Origin: Thamnidium elegans
Taxonomy: Eukaryota > Mucoromycota > Mucoromycetes > Mucorales > Mucoraceae
NCBI GenBank assembly: GCA_025201345.1
Contig: JAIXMG010000009.1
Span: forward strand, 682,001-746,000
DNA: 64,000 bases
Reading direction: 5' to 3'
The notes beneath the pieces were generated by a model. It was not told the DNA's origin. It saw only the letters and a program-made list of their open reading frames with translations, and ran no database searches. This document shows positions 25,065 through 62,945 of this stretch, one piece after another. Positions within the stretch are counted from its first letter, which is position 1; each line of letters begins with the position of its first letter. The position numbers were made by a program, and so were the translations under genes.

Positions 25065-25555
25065 ATGAGCCATCAAGTAAAAAAAAAAGGGATCTGAAAG
25101 ACTTGATTTCGAAATAAAACTAAGGTATGATGTTTACAAAATACGACTATGTTTAACAAACCTTACCAAAAATTAGGACACATTTGATTGGATCGCTACT
25201 TGAAACAATCCACCACTGGTCCAAAAATGTCAGTCCAAAAGCTAGTTTAGACTTTGAAGATCCAGTTTATAAACTCATACGCCATTGTAATGTAGGCCGA
25301 GAATTGACAGTCTCTGGTCGAAAGGTATTGACGAGAGAATAAAATAATATTTTATTTTAAGACAATGGTACCTTGTCTGGTAAAATTTCTGTCAAGGATG
25401 ATAAAATGTTTTGATTAGAAAAGTTGGGTTTTCAGGTAGTTACAGCTGTAAAATCCTCTTTCTACAAGACGGAAAGAACTAATGTTTTATTACTGTAAAA
25501 GTTTAAAAGTTTATATACTACACCATGTAAACAAGAAACAAAAGATAGCACGTAA
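25065..25555 (+). pseudogene. Decayed coding sequence of unknown family upstream of the Fanzor gene
   Basis: An ATG at 25065 begins MSHQVKKKG. One base too many in the following A10 run breaks a frame that otherwise reads GSERLDFEIKLR. A plausible intron (GTATGA...TTAG) then rejoins to THLIGSLLETIHHWSKNVSP and LDFEDPVYKLIRHCNVGREL. Further on, DNGTLSGKISVKDDKMF and LEKLGFQVVTAVKSSFYKTE are separated by a TGA. So there is a protein-like reading with at least one frameshift and two in-frame stops. I do not recognise the family. It could be a separate dead gene or an older N-terminal part of the downstream element. Confidence 0.4.
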
Positions 25556-25671: not shown

Positions 25672-28600
25672 ATGCGTAGTAAAAAGAAACAAAGGGTCAA
25701 GTTTGAAGGTAGTATCAATCGAATACCAAGATGGCGTATTTCAGGCGTTAAAAGAGCACGGAAGGAGGACGAGGGAGAATCATCAAGCTCATCAAAAAAA
25801 AAAAAAAAAAAAAAATGAAGCAGACAACAATTTATGTATTGAAGTATTATCTAATGAAATGAGGACTAGATTAACAAATAAAATAAGAATGTGTTTAGAT
25901 AATAACGATGATATAGATACCTTAAAATCTCAATATTTAAATGCTACCAGACTGGAAAGAGGTATGGTCACTGCAGCCGAACAAAAAGCTAATGTTAAAG
26001 CTACTACAATAGAAATTTTTTTAAAAAGACAAAAAAAAGGAAATGTTGAATACTGGTTGGAGTTTGTAGGTCAAAATTTCGACTCGATCTGCTTTGAATT
26101 AAATGAAAAAAAGGAAGGGGAAAGGAAAAGAAAAAGAAATCGTTTCTGATTATACTATCCCATTGAATGAAGTATTGGATACTTCATCGCCTAAACATAT
26201 TACAGATGAAGTTAGAACTTTTACTACATCGATTTCAAAAATTTTGAGAAAAGATCTTCCTCAAGACATTTTGCATCACTTTTTATTAATCATTTCAAAG
26301 ACACTAGTAGAATCAACTGATTATATCACAACCTATGGGGTTCAGCTATTCAAGATGTTAATTCAATTTAAAGACAAGTGTTTTGAATTAGATAAAGAAA
26401 ATAATGTAGTTCTTTCTAGCAGCCAAGGCCCAAAGCTTAAAGAGTATCTTCCGAATGATCTTAATATAGATCAACCTGATCATTTTTTATCGCCTGTTCC
26501 TGATAGAGATTTTATGAATTCAGATGGTTTCAATAAGCAATTAAACTCTTTATTTGACACCAATCATTTTCAATTAATTCAATCTACGTATTTTAGACCT
26601 CGAGGACCTAAGGAGTCAACTTTACAAAAGTCACCGCTACATAAGGCATTAGTTGATCATATTCCTCCCAAAAATGATCAACGGCAATCTCTAGATGTTT
26701 ATATAATGAAACAAGCATTGACCAAATACACTGTAAATTCCATCAACTTATGGGACAATCCTAAACGACTTAATAATTTATTAAATTGTTTATTACGTGT
26801 ACTCTTAAAAATTCACTTGGCCCCTATTCGTGAAATTAAAGAGAGAGGAGAAGTTAAAGCACAACAGAGATTTAACTATGTCTGATTATTTAAGCATATC
26901 AAAAGAGAATATCAGTCTGATACATAAGTCAAGAAATAATCGAAGAAGCCTTTTTAAGAATGAAATTAAAAGAAGAGACAAATTTATCAAGAAACCTAAA
27001 AAAGATTATGCAAATGCTTCCAAATGGCTTAAGAGAGCAGAAAGATGCGATGAACGTATTAATACTTATAGCGAAGTTTTAAAAGAAGAGGTTCGGATAC
27101 TTTTAATATTCACTTTGGAAATGTAATAATTAATCTTATATTCAAATTTAGAGAATAAAAAGAAGTATAGAAGATAAGAGTATTGTATCTGACGACAAGA
27201 ATAATAATAATGATAACGAAGTTTTAAAAGAAGAGATTAGTATAATTTTTAAATTAATTTTGGCAAACGAAAATCTAATTTTATATTATAATGTAGGAAG
27301 ATGATGATAGTGAAGAGTTGGAACTGGAAATATCTTCCGAACATAACCCAGCTTCCACTAATGATTTGCTGCTATTAGAAGATGAAAGACCTCTTAAAAA
27401 TACCGATGTCAGCAGGAGTAGATTGAATGTATTGCAAGCTATAATAAGAAACCTCATCTATAAATACGATGGAAAAAGTACTTCAAAAAAACAAATTCAA
27501 GATGATTCTAATGATATCAACGAAAAGGAGATTAATGTCTGCAAATTAATAATTGATTTGATACAACCATATTTCCCTGAAAAAAAAAAATAGATGCTCA
27601 ATTGCATTTCAAATACCCTTTGTATTGATGGCCAATCAAGTTTTTAACAATACTGGATATTCTAAAAAAGCTTTAAGAATCTGTCCTTTTACAAGTCCAG
27701 GACATTGAATGCTTTATCAATGGATGCCTCTGCTATATTTAGCTTGTTCTGTGGTAATAATACTGGAGACGGCATGAGAAACCTTGATATGTATGGATTT
27801 GATGGCGAGGTTTTTCTTTCTAGGCAACAAACGAATGAACAAAAAGACGCTGTTTTTAGCTCTTTTTTTTTTTTTTTTTTTTTTTTTTGATATATCGGAA
27901 ATCACAAATACGGCATATTCGTTTAATCAAAAGTTTAATCATATAATAACTTTTTTACCGGGCTTAAAAACAGTTAGAGTATCTGGAACTTTGATTCGTA
28001 ATACTTTATCCAATTTTTGTAAAGTGATCACTCAAAAGATTGATAGCAAAGTTACACCAAAACAATTGTCAATTTCTGCCAAGAAAGATATTAATGATAG
28101 GATTGCACTTTTAAAAGCTGAATCAAACACTCTTAGGTTACAATTAAAAAATGCTGTTCAAACAAGAACGAATCATATTATTACAAGTGATATTAAAGGT
28201 CTGAAAAATGAATGGATAAAAAAAGAAAAAAATGACAAGAGCTTTACAATTCAGGGGGAAAAAAGTTAATGACGAATTATACAAGAAAGTAGAACACCAT
28301 AAACTATTAACAAAACGTCACAACAACGAAGTAATAGTTATCAGAGAAAATCTAAAAGCTACTAAATCCAGAATTTATAACTTACAAAACAGCTTAATTT
28401 TTCTGAATATGGTAAAGACTTTACAAAGAAAGATGAACAAAATATTGTCAAGAAATTTGAAATAACAAAAGAAAACTATGAATGCTTCGAAAGAACAGAA
28501 GATATAGAGCTAGATGAACAAGTTCGCTATTCAGAGGATTTACTGTTTTCTGGAACAGATAATGGACTGGTGACTATGACAGAAACGGCAAAGCTGGATA

Positions 28601-29609
28601 TAAAGCAAGTAAAATTTCATTTGAAACTGTTCAACAAATATTCTATATTGAATGATATTAAAGGTAAAAATGATATGATTTCAAAGCAGGTTTATTTTAG
28701 GAGTTGTTGCTCACATACTTTTAAAAAAATCTGAAATAGAAGGTGACCAAGACGCCAAGTTGAACTTTTCTGATGATGATATCAGCCAAGCAACACTTTA
28801 AGGTTCATTCTAGTGACTTGCAGTTTCGCAGTGGAGTTAAAACAAGCTTGATGAAATTAGAAAAATTGAAAAAGCGAACAGAAGCAGGAAAAGTTGTAAT
28901 GGATATCGAAAGAAGTTTTATGGATATGAACATCGAAAAAGCCAAAAATATAAACGAAGTCGATGATATGATGAATATAAAATATAAAAATAGGAACGAC
29001 TTAAGAAAATTTTATTATTTAAACGCGCAAATCAAACTAAAACGTAAAACTGAAATACAACGTAAAAAATGTTATGATAAAACCTGCTCATCCGGAAGAC
29101 AATTTATTTCAAGCAAACAGGACAAGTACTCCATCATGTTGACCGGTGATAGAGACTATTGTCATGGCTCAAGTATTAAAGGTCACCTCAAGTACGGAGG
29201 CGTGTGGAAACATAAACTACATAGTCTATATACTTCTGTTGGGATTACCAATGAAAATCTGACATCACAAACTTGTGTTTTTTGTTTTAAAAAAACCACA
29301 CATCCGTTGAAAGTGTTAAAAACCAAGAAAGGTAATCTTGTTAAGGAAATAAGAGGAACATCAGTTTGCACAAATGAACATTGTATATTGGCATTAAAAA
29401 ATGAAACACATAAGGGAAGAGATGCAGTATCTGCCACAGCAATATGCATTTCCGGATCTACTATGTTACTCTTAAATATGCAACATCCAGCTTTTTCTTA
29501 TGATAAATACAACAGTGAAAATAATACTGATGATTTTAGAGGTTTTCTTAAACCGAAACACCTCAAGGTCTGCCAATCTATGATGGTATTACTGGATAAA
29601 TCTAGATAA
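25672..29609 (+). pseudogene. Fanzor-type (eukaryotic TnpB-like) RNA-guided nuclease gene, multiply frameshifted
   Basis: The coding trace starts MRSKKKQRVKFEGSINRIP at 25672 and runs through several overlapping frames to the stop at 29607-29609. The last 330 codons hold the nuclease core. RuvC-I reads LLFSGTDNGLVTM, with the catalytic Asp codon at 28558. A central GDRDYCHGSSIKGHLKYGG lies in the RuvC-II region. A zinc ribbon has CVFC (Cys codons at 29274 and 29283) and CTNEHC (29367 and 29382). RuvC-III reads GRDAVSATAI, with the Asp codon at 29421. This order and spacing are those of TnpB/Fanzor proteins. Frame changes occur near 25796-25815 (A run), 26105-26140, 26840-26880, 27584-27593 (A run), 27705, 27866-27889 (T run), 28235-28265, 28400 and 28795. 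At least one real intron is likely (about 28662-28699). Decay is the simplest reading; homopolymer sequencing errors could explain some breaks but not all. Confidence 0.75.
27075..27310 (+). repeat. Tandem duplication of an exon-intron segment inside the Fanzor gene
   Basis: Two copies about 144 bp apart start with the identical 18 bases at 27075 and 27219 (encoding EVLKEE) and continue into similar AT-rich sequence ending TTTAG and TGTAG. In copy 1 the coding run is followed by GTTCGG, usable as a donor. In copy 2 the same position reads ATTAGT, so the donor is lost. Removing both segments at the same place keeps the frame (copy 1 continues RIKRSIEDKSIVSDD, copy 2 continues EDDDSEELELEISS). 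Confidence 0.5.
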
Positions 29610-29785
29610 GAGCTTAAAACAACTAACTTATTTTCTAATTACCCATTCTAACCCATTATTTTCTATTACAATCAACTTTTCTTTTCTAAAATTTTTATGT
29701 AGGTTTCAATATTTGAATATACATCATTCCTATTGGCTAATTAATTTTTTTATAGTAAATACCCTCACAGTATTCAAATACGGGT

Positions 29786-30317
29786 TTCTTAGGGTTCACA
29801 TAGGGTAGCTCAGGATTTTTTTTGTATAAAATTACGTGATTTTATTGAAATCAGATAAATGTATAAATTTGTGGTTTAGAGTTCCGGAAAAAGTAATAAA
29901 AAAGGAAGAAAGGAGGTGGGTGGGTTAGAGTTCTATGACTAAACATTCCGTTTTTACTCGGTTGTGATATCATTAGTCTCGTCTATCGAAACGAGTGAAT
30001 GGGATATTGACATCTCAAAAAGGGTTATTGCCTGCTGATCTATCCAGGAAGACTGGTCGAATATACACCGCCAATGGTATTGCCAAATAATTTCAAGAAC
30101 GATACCAAGTGACAGAAGGATGTCCTCAGGTATCTGTTGACAGGTCTTGTCATGCAAAGTAAAGAGCGCAATTTATACCGTTTCTGGAGAAGGAAATGTG
30201 TCATTAAGATTCATATCTTCTATTGCTTTTTTCCAAAGGGTCCATCGTAGGGTTCTTAGGGACCACAGGGTACACGATCCTGGGCTACCCTATGTATACC
30301 CATGTGGTCCCTAAGAA
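29786..30317. mobile_element. Short inverted-repeat element (MITE-like or truncated DNA transposon), about 532 bp
   Basis: The left end reads TTCTTAGGG, then TTCACATAGGGTAGCTCAGG. The right end, in reverse complement, reads TTCTTAGGG, then an extra 14-17 bases, then CATAGGGTAGCCCAGGAT. The ends therefore form an imperfect terminal inverted repeat of about 30 bp. Inside, a minus-strand frame at 29954-30157 encodes 67 residues including LGIVLEIIWQYHWRCIFDQS, perhaps a transposase remnant. No clear target-site duplication was found. Confidence 0.5.
30253..30317. repeat. Perfect 15-bp inverted repeat with 35-nt loop
   Basis: TTCTTAGGGACCACA at 30253-30267 is exactly complementary to TGTGGTCCCTAAGAA at 30303-30317. 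A further half-copy (GTGGTCCCTAA) follows near 30326-30337. This is nested in the right end of the inverted-repeat element. Confidence 0.75.
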
Positions 30318-30409
30318 TTAACTCAGTGGTCCCTAAAAAAAATGTAAAAAATAATCGACTGCCACTACCAATAAACAACGGTATCATTGCGTCCATAACA
30401 AAGAAAATC

Positions 30410-60977: not shown

Positions 60978-61370
60978 TTATTTGATACTTGAATTGGCGC
61001 GGAAGTAGCAAGACTTAACATTTTTAAAGTTGGTAGGAGGCAAAGAGGCCAGTATCTTTCCAACCTGGAAGCAAGCTTCCCAATCAATCTTATCATCATA
61101 ATGCTTTCTGACAGAATCAATATATGCCCAATTTTCATTCTCGTTTTCTGGAGTATAAATCAAGTCTTGAGTAGAACATCTTGAGTTGTACTGTTGATAT
61201 AACAGATGACTACAATAGGAGGAACATGATGTTTTTTTAATCATTTGTAAACAATACTCATTTACACGGAGATAAAGCTTTAAGTCCACTGTATGTTGAA
61301 CTTCAACGAGTATGGGAGGCAAGGGTTTGTCTCTACTATTCATAGGGGCATATACAACATCAGATTTCAT
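60978..61370 (-). pseudogene. Copy A of a PD-(D/E)XK-like lineage-specific family, 5'-truncated
   Basis: A 130-codon open frame starts MKSDVVYAPMNSRDKPLPPI, then VEVQHTVDLKLYLRVNEYCL, and ends with NWAYIDSVRKHYDDKIDWEA and CYFRANSSIK. The arrangement S-D-(I/V)-x-Y-x-P followed about 20 residues on by V-E-(V/I)-Q-H is the D...E-x-Q core of PD-(D/E)XK nucleases; copy B has the same motif. Upstream, a related string (VSTEWL) is separated by stops, so the N-terminus is broken. The Cys-rich middle (SCSSYCSHLLYQQYNSRC) differs from copy B, suggesting deletion. Function unknown. Confidence 0.5.
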
Positions 61371-61899
61371 TAAATTAAATTAGCCATTCAGTAGACACCG
61401 CTACATATTGTCCTTTCATCTACATAAAAATCCTGATTCATTCTTTTTAAAACTCACATGGTGGTATATGGTACCATCCCTAGTTCTTTTATACTATTTG
61501 CTATAAAGTTCAAAGGATACAGTACTTAATCTCCGAGAGACTATCATTTCAATATACTACGTTAACTTAAGACAAATAAAATTTTCTACACTGATATACA
61601 ATAAACATCTATTGGGGGATTTAAAGAGCAAATTGTTCCTCTATAATGCTATACTGCCATATAGTTCAAGTACATACTAATGTAATACATTGATCCTTTC
61701 GTTAATAGTTACAGTTGGTACTATGTTATTAGCTCTCTTTATACTCAAGTGTTTGTGAACATAATCTTTTTTTGCCGAATATATTTTTTATTTGACATGA
61801 AAATAATTGTAATATAAAAATACCATGATAAGATGTAATATACCTTAATCTTGTGTTTTTTTCCATCTGTAATAATTTGACTTCATGGTACTCCATTTT
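61371..61899. other. Spacer between PD-(D/E)XK-like copies A and B
   Basis: About 530 bp. The first 70 bp hold the decayed N-terminal coding of copy A; the rest shows no gene. Confidence 0.4.
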
Positions 61900-62945
61900 T
61901 TATGTTTTTTTAAATAATCCACGCGAACGACCATTATCGTAAATAGCTTCCCATGGGATGGGTTCACCCTCCTTCATATTAGATAAGTATCTATTTACGT
62001 ACTCCCAATTGCTGTTGGTATTATCGTTGGTATTGGTACTGTTGTTGGTATAGGTATTGATATTGGTATTGATGTTAGTATTGCTGTTGGTATTGCTGTT
62101 AGTATCATCAGCTTCATCTGCATCTGAAACAGCTTGATACTTTCTTTTATTTGCCTGTGATAACAATTTTGCATCTTCTAAAACCTTTTTTGTTTTAGGC
62201 CACATTTTCATATCAGGAACCTCTTCAGACAAAGTTTCAATAGCTTCAGACATTATAGCTTCAGATCCTTTACATACTTTCACAAGTTTCTCAAGATAAT
62301 CTTTATTCTTTACAATCTGGTCTTGGAAAATATTGCTAGCATTAGAATATAACTGTTGAATATTAGAGTCAGTGTAAAAAGGGTTTGATAGGAAGGAAGG
62401 ATGTTGATCGATTAAAAATTCTGAAAGCGCAACAAAAGGAGTCAAAGGCGAAGTCAAGCTTGATATAATTGAACTGTCAGTAACAAAGTAACAACTACGA
62501 GCCCAAGGATCTGAAGGATATTTAAGAAGAAACGGCAAATTTTTATTGCATGTGGTTTTCTTGGAGACATTATACTTCATAGAGGAAATGACAAAGGTAA
62601 CAACAATAGGCGCAATTTTTTTATTGCTACGGTATACTGAAATTAAATAAACCATTAGTCTTATAATAAAGCCTGTATCAGCTATGTGTTGTATTTCTAC
62701 TAAAACATGAGGCAAACTATTATCTGAGAAATTCTTTGGGACGTACAAAATGTCAGACTTAGTATTGTTTAGTCCATTCTGTTGGCCATGGTGTATAGTT
62801 ATTTTCCGCTTTTTCACCAACAACAGTTTTAACAACTGAATTAACAATAGAAGGATCTAGTAAAACATGCTTGGACATCAAATCGGTGCCCGGACGATGA
62901 CGGTAAGGTAGTTCTAGAGATAAAAGTCCAGCAGACGGGTCAACT
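61900..62945 (-). pseudogene. Copy B of the PD-(D/E)XK-like family, near full length with one frameshift
   Basis: The N-terminal part (from about 62945) reads LLSLELPYRHRPGTDLMSKH, then LLDPSIVNSVVKTVVGEKAE and PWPTEW. A one-base excess near 62754-62768 shifts the frame, after which KSDILYVPKNFSDNSLPHVL and VEIQHIADTGFIIRLMVYLI follow. The pattern D-I-L-Y ... E-I-Q-H ... R-L-x-x-Y, then a hydrophobic strand (APIVVTFVISS), is what a PD-(D/E)XK core looks like. The C-terminal third has a helical region, an Asn-Thr repeat (DTNSNTNSNTNINTNINTYT) and a conserved tail, NWEYVNRYLSN then PIPWEAIYDNGRSRGLF. Family function is not known to me; a DNA-processing or transposon-derived nuclease is an inference only. 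Confidence 0.55.

Follow-up and report, generated by a model that had tools for sequence, protein, structure and literature searches.

A probable dead transposon copy bearing a divergent Fanzor1-like gene in Thamnidium elegans

The gene remnant and its RuvC core

A 64,000-nucleotide stretch of the genome of the fungus Thamnidium elegans (C64:682001–746000 of the 64 contigs, 34.1 Mb, that were searched; hereafter the window), with a G+C content of 30–39% in 2-kb steps, contains the wreck of a gene at positions 25672–29609. The gene, its introns, and the element remnants around it all lie on the plus strand. The wreck retains a RuvC-I aspartate, a Gly-Asp (GD) strand, a zinc ribbon, and a RuvC-III aspartate, and it had been assigned to the Fanzor type of nuclease in an initial annotation made from the sequence alone.

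The coding region opens, with ATG 25672 as its likely start, in a basic, Lys/Arg-rich N-terminal part (25672–26149) that by eye resembles the N-terminal open reading frames (ORFs) of three other loci in the same genome (L019–L021) and is broken near 25796–25817, at an A run, and near 26103–26149. It overlaps an open piece of 260 residues from the N-terminal half (26103–26885). The middle coding part (27297–28650) contains several frame changes, including those at an A run around 27580 and at a T run around 27863–27889. The RuvC-I region, SGTDNGLVTM (28549–28578), carries the catalytic Asp at codon 28558. It is followed by the RuvC-II strand GDRDYCHGSSIKGHLKYGG (29145–29201), in which GD is conserved across the family, and by TNENLTSQTCVFC (29247–29285), which holds the rearranged RuvC-II Glu (codon 29253) and the first zinc pair. 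The second zinc pair, CTNEHC (C-x4-C; 29367–29384), completes a ribbon CVFC ... CTNEHC with Cys codons at 29274, 29283, 29367, and 29382. RuvC-III, GRDAVSATAI (29415–29444), supplies the last catalytic Asp at codon 29421, and the last open piece ends in a stop codon at 29607–29609, two frame changes, at about 29540 and 29575, having altered the C terminus of this copy. The motifs named in the initial annotation are thus all present in the order it gave. Its statement that no obvious canonical Glu is present does not hold, as the residue is the E of TNENLTSQTCVFC, and its suspicion of a rearranged active site is borne out by the position of this Glu, E-x6-CxxC, as in Fanzors.

The DNA signature GD-x18-W-x15-E-x2-T-[S..]-x2-C-x2-C has a single match in the window (29145, plus strand) and none on either strand of 100 first-order Markov resamplings. 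The G of GD and the E stand 36 residues apart both in the window and in 17 of the 27 homologues compared; in the other 10 the stretch is absent or cut short, has one extra residue (P0014), or has lost the D (P0018). A regular expression for E-x2-[TS][TS]-x2-CxxC finds the pattern in 19 of the 27.

Likeness to Fanzor1

The Fanzor1 motif is given in passages of PMC3627910 as D-X(125,275)-[TS][TS]-X-X-C4 zinc finger-X(5,50)-RD. Nine of 27 homologues contain both D and TS, at a distance of 157–241 residues, and RD is present in the C termini that are complete (judged by eye for P0021 and P0022); in the window the D and TS codons are 704 nt apart, a distance that includes a 76-nt intron and a lesion. 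The same passages list G500 and E536 as further conserved residues, and G500 probably corresponds to the G of the family's GD. A rearranged RuvC-II Glu in the form E-x6-CxxC is described for Fanzor1, Fanzor2, and pro-Fanzor in the consulted part of PMC10711439, and this arrangement is found at window codon 29253 and in 19 of 27 homologues.

The closest known comparison is SpuFz1, the Fanzor1 of Spizellomyces punctatus (PDB 8gkh and 9cey), with catalytic residues D383/E541/D606 according to the consulted part of PMC10432273. Like the window family it has a RuvC fold with the rearranged Glu in E-x6-CxxC; its G-to-E step is likewise 36, and its second zinc pair, CTNPNC, has the same C-x-N-x-x-C form. 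In a PDB profile row its stretch DEYKTSSVC aligns with the family stretch around TNENLTSQTCVFC, although the sequence match is not significant (E = 1.0). The family differs from SpuFz1 in its length of about 1000 residues, its introns, and about 44 extra residues between the RuvC-I Asp and the Glu (P0020). A fold search with the predicted model of the family protein P0020 returned SpuFz1 as the four best of 350,542 PDB chains, ahead of every listed Cas12. Together with the motif spacing, this result bears out the assignment to a Fanzor-type gene. The structural check that had been proposed for the locus thus came out in favor of a SpuFz1-like RuvC fold for P0020, a model of moderate quality, and weakly for the model of a second family protein, P0012.

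Evidence weighing against the assignment

A considerable body of results weighs against a Fanzor1-like identity. At RuvC-I, the consulted part of PMC10711439 describes a DPG motif in Fanzor1, Fanzor2, and pro-Fanzor (a pattern D, not-P, G is also used there), whereas the window family has DNG. The family protein also exceeds the reported Fanzor1s in length. The profile match to Fanzor or TnpB that the initial annotation had put forward as a check was not obtained: Pfam gave no match at cut-off and no TNB row among 8 window pieces at E ≤ 10, the long family protein P0023 reached E = 4.8 and 7.9 bits against PF07282 (TNB; cut-off 26.3), no NCBIfam match reached cut-off, and the best PHROGs matches (E of 0.029 at best) were to unknown families. 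In a PDB profile search a keratin row (E = 0.2) ranked above SpuFz1 (E = 1.0), and two further PDB profile searches listed no Fanzor at E ≤ 10. The window piece alone had no PDB match by sequence at E ≤ 10, and PpFz1, a Mucorales Fanzor1 from Parasitella parasitica (PDB 9cf0), was unlisted in four PDB sequence searches with the family.

The structural evidence has its own weaknesses. The P0020 model is of moderate quality (mean predicted local distance difference test score, 61.8; predicted template-modeling score, 0.40), its TM-scores to SpuFz1 are 0.20–0.25, and in the VIA-align ranking 28 rows, mostly coiled helices, stand above SpuFz1. For the P0012 model, Foldseek gave a best E of 0.98, nothing significant, with Fanzors at ranks 32 and 38. 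Finally, the 3' tail of the element, where a guide RNA might have been sought by analogy with Fanzor1, folds no better than chance (z = +1.48; 189 of 200 shuffles fold equally well or better).

A rival reading is that the wreck is the decayed gene of a different RNase H/RuvC-fold transposase, or of another Cas12/TnpB relative outside the Fanzor1 branch, its likeness to Fanzor1 being that of any RuvC domain with a zinc ribbon. The missing profile match, the DNG at RuvC-I, and the presence of Cas12 chains in the P0020 fold list all speak for it. We nevertheless consider it improbable, because SpuFz1 precedes any listed Cas12 in that list, because the G-to-E step, E-x6-CxxC, and the C-x-N-x-x-C second zinc pair recur together in SpuFz1, and because the family is associated with DNA transposons. 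We read the locus, with a probability of roughly 0.85, as the dead remnant of a DNA transposon that carried a divergent Fanzor1-like gene; because DPG and a significant Pfam profile match are both absent, we call the gene Fanzor1-like and not a canonical Fanzor1.

Canonical Fanzors in the same genome

PF07282 (TNB) matches 21 stretches of the T. elegans genome, 19 of them above cut-off. By eye, none lies at a place occupied by the window family, and even the nearest (C28:389019) is separated from a family stretch by about 4 kb. L039 and L040, two of these loci, are canonical Fanzors with VDEYLTSQICPRC and CSTC ... NRD. They share E-x6-CxxC with the window family but differ in having a C-x2-C second zinc pair and no GD before the Glu. 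Aligned by hhalign, the family and the canonical Fanzors of this genome gave P = 0.0017 and a probability of 15% over 21 columns, and a second such comparison gave P = 0.0042 and 8%; neither reaches significance, and both count against the Fanzor1-like assignment. Because the profile alignment covers the E-x6-CxxC stretch alone, the family has the look of a remote branch and not of a decayed canonical Fanzor. Several of the canonical TNB stretches have open frames of 200–270 residues without a stop.

Introns, decay, and past selection

Three of the breaks in the reading frame are introns, and the remaining ones are frame changes. Intron 1 (27091–27151) and intron 3 (28664–28739) are bounded by GT and AG, and the gene models P0015 and P0019, respectively, are joined at matching places; both are gene predictions and not transcripts. 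Intron 2 (27236–27296) has AT at its donor in the window and GT in both paralogues compared (L025 and L026). Introns 1 and 2 belong to a tandem duplication whose two copies are 145 bp apart and 76% identical. The duplicated unit comprises an intron and the end of its upstream exon (27057–27151 and 27202–27296), leaving two adjacent introns of equal length.

The frame changes were located by comparison with five close paralogues (L016, L025, L026, L027, and L028), the listed positions being grouped by us into sites. At eight sites, near 26840, 27706, 27866, 28255, 28386, 28798, 29540, and 29575, all close paralogues that span the site differ from the window by a frame-changing indel; near 27580, two of three do. 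The two N-terminal breaks (about 25796–25817 and 26103–26149) lie upstream of the alignments with these close paralogues. The earlier estimate of about nine frame changes was thus about right. That many would fall at A or T runs is true of some, while most indels are unflagged: homopolymer runs account for 4 of 11, 6 of 13, 3 of 15, 0 of 7, and 2 of 7 indels in the individual paralogues, or 15 of 53 in total. At one lesion the window lacks about 11 bases. The paralogues in turn carry differences from the window at other sites, which indicates that decay proceeded copy by copy after insertion. With its frame-changing indels and lost intron 2 donor, the window copy is, as had been proposed, mostly dead, and it yields no working nuclease.

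In-frame ratios of nonsynonymous to synonymous substitution (dN/dS), counted without codons that contain a gap or stop, are 0.34, 0.31, 0.39, 0.19, and 0.22 for the window against L016, L025, L026, L027, and L028, with upper bootstrap bounds of 0.52, 0.45, 0.59, 0.31, and 0.38; the two wrong frames give 0.42–1.22. The low in-frame values indicate that the copies descend from genes that were under purifying selection before they decayed. That the gene is instead alive, its frame changes being assembly errors in homopolymers, is very improbable: several breaks do lie at A or T runs and dN/dS is low, but core genes of the window retain open frames of 897, 919, and 991 residues, evidence against a poor assembly, every paralogue has its own sites of difference from the window, neither the loss of about 11 bases nor an intron 2 without a GT donor fits such errors, and 38 of the 53 indels are not flagged at homopolymer runs.

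The transposon

Carriage by a transposon is indicated by a right end common to several copies, a Tc1-type left end, and a transposase remnant below cut-off. In the window the 3' noncoding tail (29610–29772), common to L016, L025, L026, and L027, stops sharply at CCCTCACAG, directly before TA. Five copies agree on this right end, CCCT(C/T)ACAG followed by TA (window 29770–29772), beyond which their DNA differs, and the same end occurs at further places in the genome. TA follows in all five, and the last 75 nt of the element are well conserved in four copies. On the left, a remnant at 25210–25342 contains 13 bases of a Tc1/mariner-type terminal repeat, CCACCACTGGTCC, and shares about 120 bp with the left of L016; the same word is also found twice in inverted orientation, at C11:694944 and C11:695110. 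A Tc1/mariner-type DDE_3 remnant, below the Pfam cut-off, lies upstream in the same orientation in L010, L019, and L020, and these three loci and L021 have long stretches of the unit in common (about 5.2 kb in L019). On the left side, TA is not consistently present at L016, L026, L019, L020, L021, and L010, so no target-site duplication is claimed. Nor do the two ends of the element form a clear inverted-repeat pair.

Such carriage has precedents. Fanzor1 is reported to be carried by Mariner, MuDR, and other elements and to occur in Mucor, Rhizopus, and Phycomyces, in passages of PMC3627910 (Bao and Jurka 2013); the elements described there, including the MCi families of Mucor circinelloides, resemble the window family in being transposon-borne, with Mariner among the carriers, and multicopy in Mucorales. 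Tc1/Mariner is the largest group of transposable elements in Mucorales according to the consulted part of PMC7928374.

Copies in the genome and homologues in other fungi

The last piece of the window gene has 93 matching stretches in its own genome (E ≤ 0.001), several of which may come from one copy. The RuvC-I piece has 38, the N-terminal piece 26103–26885 has 30 including itself, and P0020 has 66. Besides the window, 29 loci (L009–L037) were read against a profile of the family, and for five of these ORF lists were consulted as well. The search for an intact paralogue that had been suggested found none with all exons open (by eye) among these 29 loci, which cover a minority of the 93 stretches; intron 3 makes a RuvC region in one frame unexpected even in an intact gene, so intactness was judged by eye.

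Protein database searches returned 18, 4, and 6 family proteins, the 6 including the query P0020; in the searches that gave 4 and 6, only candidates sharing most words were scored. The proteins that bear an organism name all come from Mucorales, of the genera Helicostylum, Rhizopus, Choanephora, Mucor, Thamnidium, and Parasitella. From T. elegans, P0019 is 70% identical over 74% of the joined L019 query, near letter for letter where aligned (by eye), and P0015 is 91% identical over 25% of the query. The long gene model P0023 from Mucor velutinosus (998 residues) and the incomplete P0024 (1009 residues) indicate a family protein of about 1000 residues or more.

The family is likely to be new, unless it is one of the MCi or ROr families. 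In the open-access literature, to which our searches were confined, no paper was found for Fanzor together with Mucoromycota and one, PMC11423790, for Fanzor together with Mucorales. A search for fungal Fanzor pseudogenes gave nothing but work on nucleic-acid triplexes, judged by abstract.

Some family pseudogenes (L011–L014, L017, and L037, on contigs C43, C47, C42, and C15) form near-tandem units of about 9.5–10 kb that are pairwise 87–95% identical over their aligned parts. Ribosomal DNA was considered as their home and rejected, as L011–L014, L017, and the window have no Rfam match at the gathering threshold. L014 also carries a Transposase_21 (tnp2) ORF.

Proposed function and significance

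The product of an intact gene would be about 1000 residues in length. Its long N-terminal half would be mostly helical, and its C-terminal part would be a RuvC nuclease whose site would consist of Asp 28558, Glu 29253, and Asp 29421; a C4 zinc ribbon would separate the Glu from the last Asp. Passages of PMC10432273, PMC11423790, and PMC10711439 describe an RNA from the right end that guides the RuvC nuclease of Fanzor1. By analogy, the intact protein may have bound an RNA made from the right end of its element, its RuvC domain may have cut DNA matching that RNA, and the cutting could have helped the Tc1/mariner-type element to stay at its sites or to spread.

Should the family prove to be a genuine Fanzor1 branch, surveys that rely on the TNB profile undercount the RNA-guided nucleases of eukaryotes (93 against 21 stretches in this one genome), and long, intron-bearing forms with a GD strand and a C-x-N-x-x-C ribbon would widen the size range of these proteins and offer new enzymes for testing. 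The numerous broken copies document the decay of such elements in a fungus.

A possible viral connection

Searched against viral models, the P0020 model gave 11 matches at E ≤ 0.001, to long proteins of giant viruses, white spot syndrome virus (WSSV), and other viruses, mostly uncharacterized. The nine best Foldseek rows, including Bodo saltans virus, Klosneuvirus, and Hyperionvirus, span 472–796 columns with E values from 1.1e-9 to 3.3e-5. The first 11 alignments span 472–814 columns with root-mean-square deviations of 17–40 and TM-scores of 0.16–0.34, and coiled helices may inflate them. Three viral rows named "Cas12f1-like TNB" are among the best 50, at ranks 12, 13, and 19, behind the long viral proteins. 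Some of the best viral matches carry doubtful names, such as Hsp70/DnaK.

By sequence, no viral relative was confirmed at any locus with P0024, A8, and P0020 as queries, and viral contigs contained no match to the G-W-E-CxxC pattern. In the literature on giant viruses, among them Klosneuvirus and Bodo saltans virus, the 10 papers listed of 113 matching do not mention Fanzor. We raise, as a speculative suggestion that we think rather doubtful, that the long (about 1000 residues), intron-bearing Mucorales proteins missed by TNB form a separate Fanzor-like lineage beside the canonical Fanzors, with their whole two-part architecture in common with mostly uncharacterized giant-virus proteins, and belong to an overlooked virus–fungus branch of RNA-guided nucleases.

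Surroundings of the element

The genes flanking the element are core genes (Raptor, Vta1, a 2Fe-2S thioredoxin-like protein, RasGEF, and phosphoribosyl synthetase), and the proposal of an accessory island is accordingly rejected. Farther away, an ORF at 61900–62856 on the minus strand matches Transposase_31 (YhgA-like; E = 1.2e-4); a smaller ORF at 60978–61379 is similar to it by eye and has no Pfam match at E ≤ 0.01. A short repeat at 29792–30340, which has inverted ends and begins about 20 bp beyond the right end of the element, recurs at 24 other places in the genome (at least 298 bases, 83–96% identity) and, being multicopy with inverted ends, looks like a miniature inverted-repeat transposable element.

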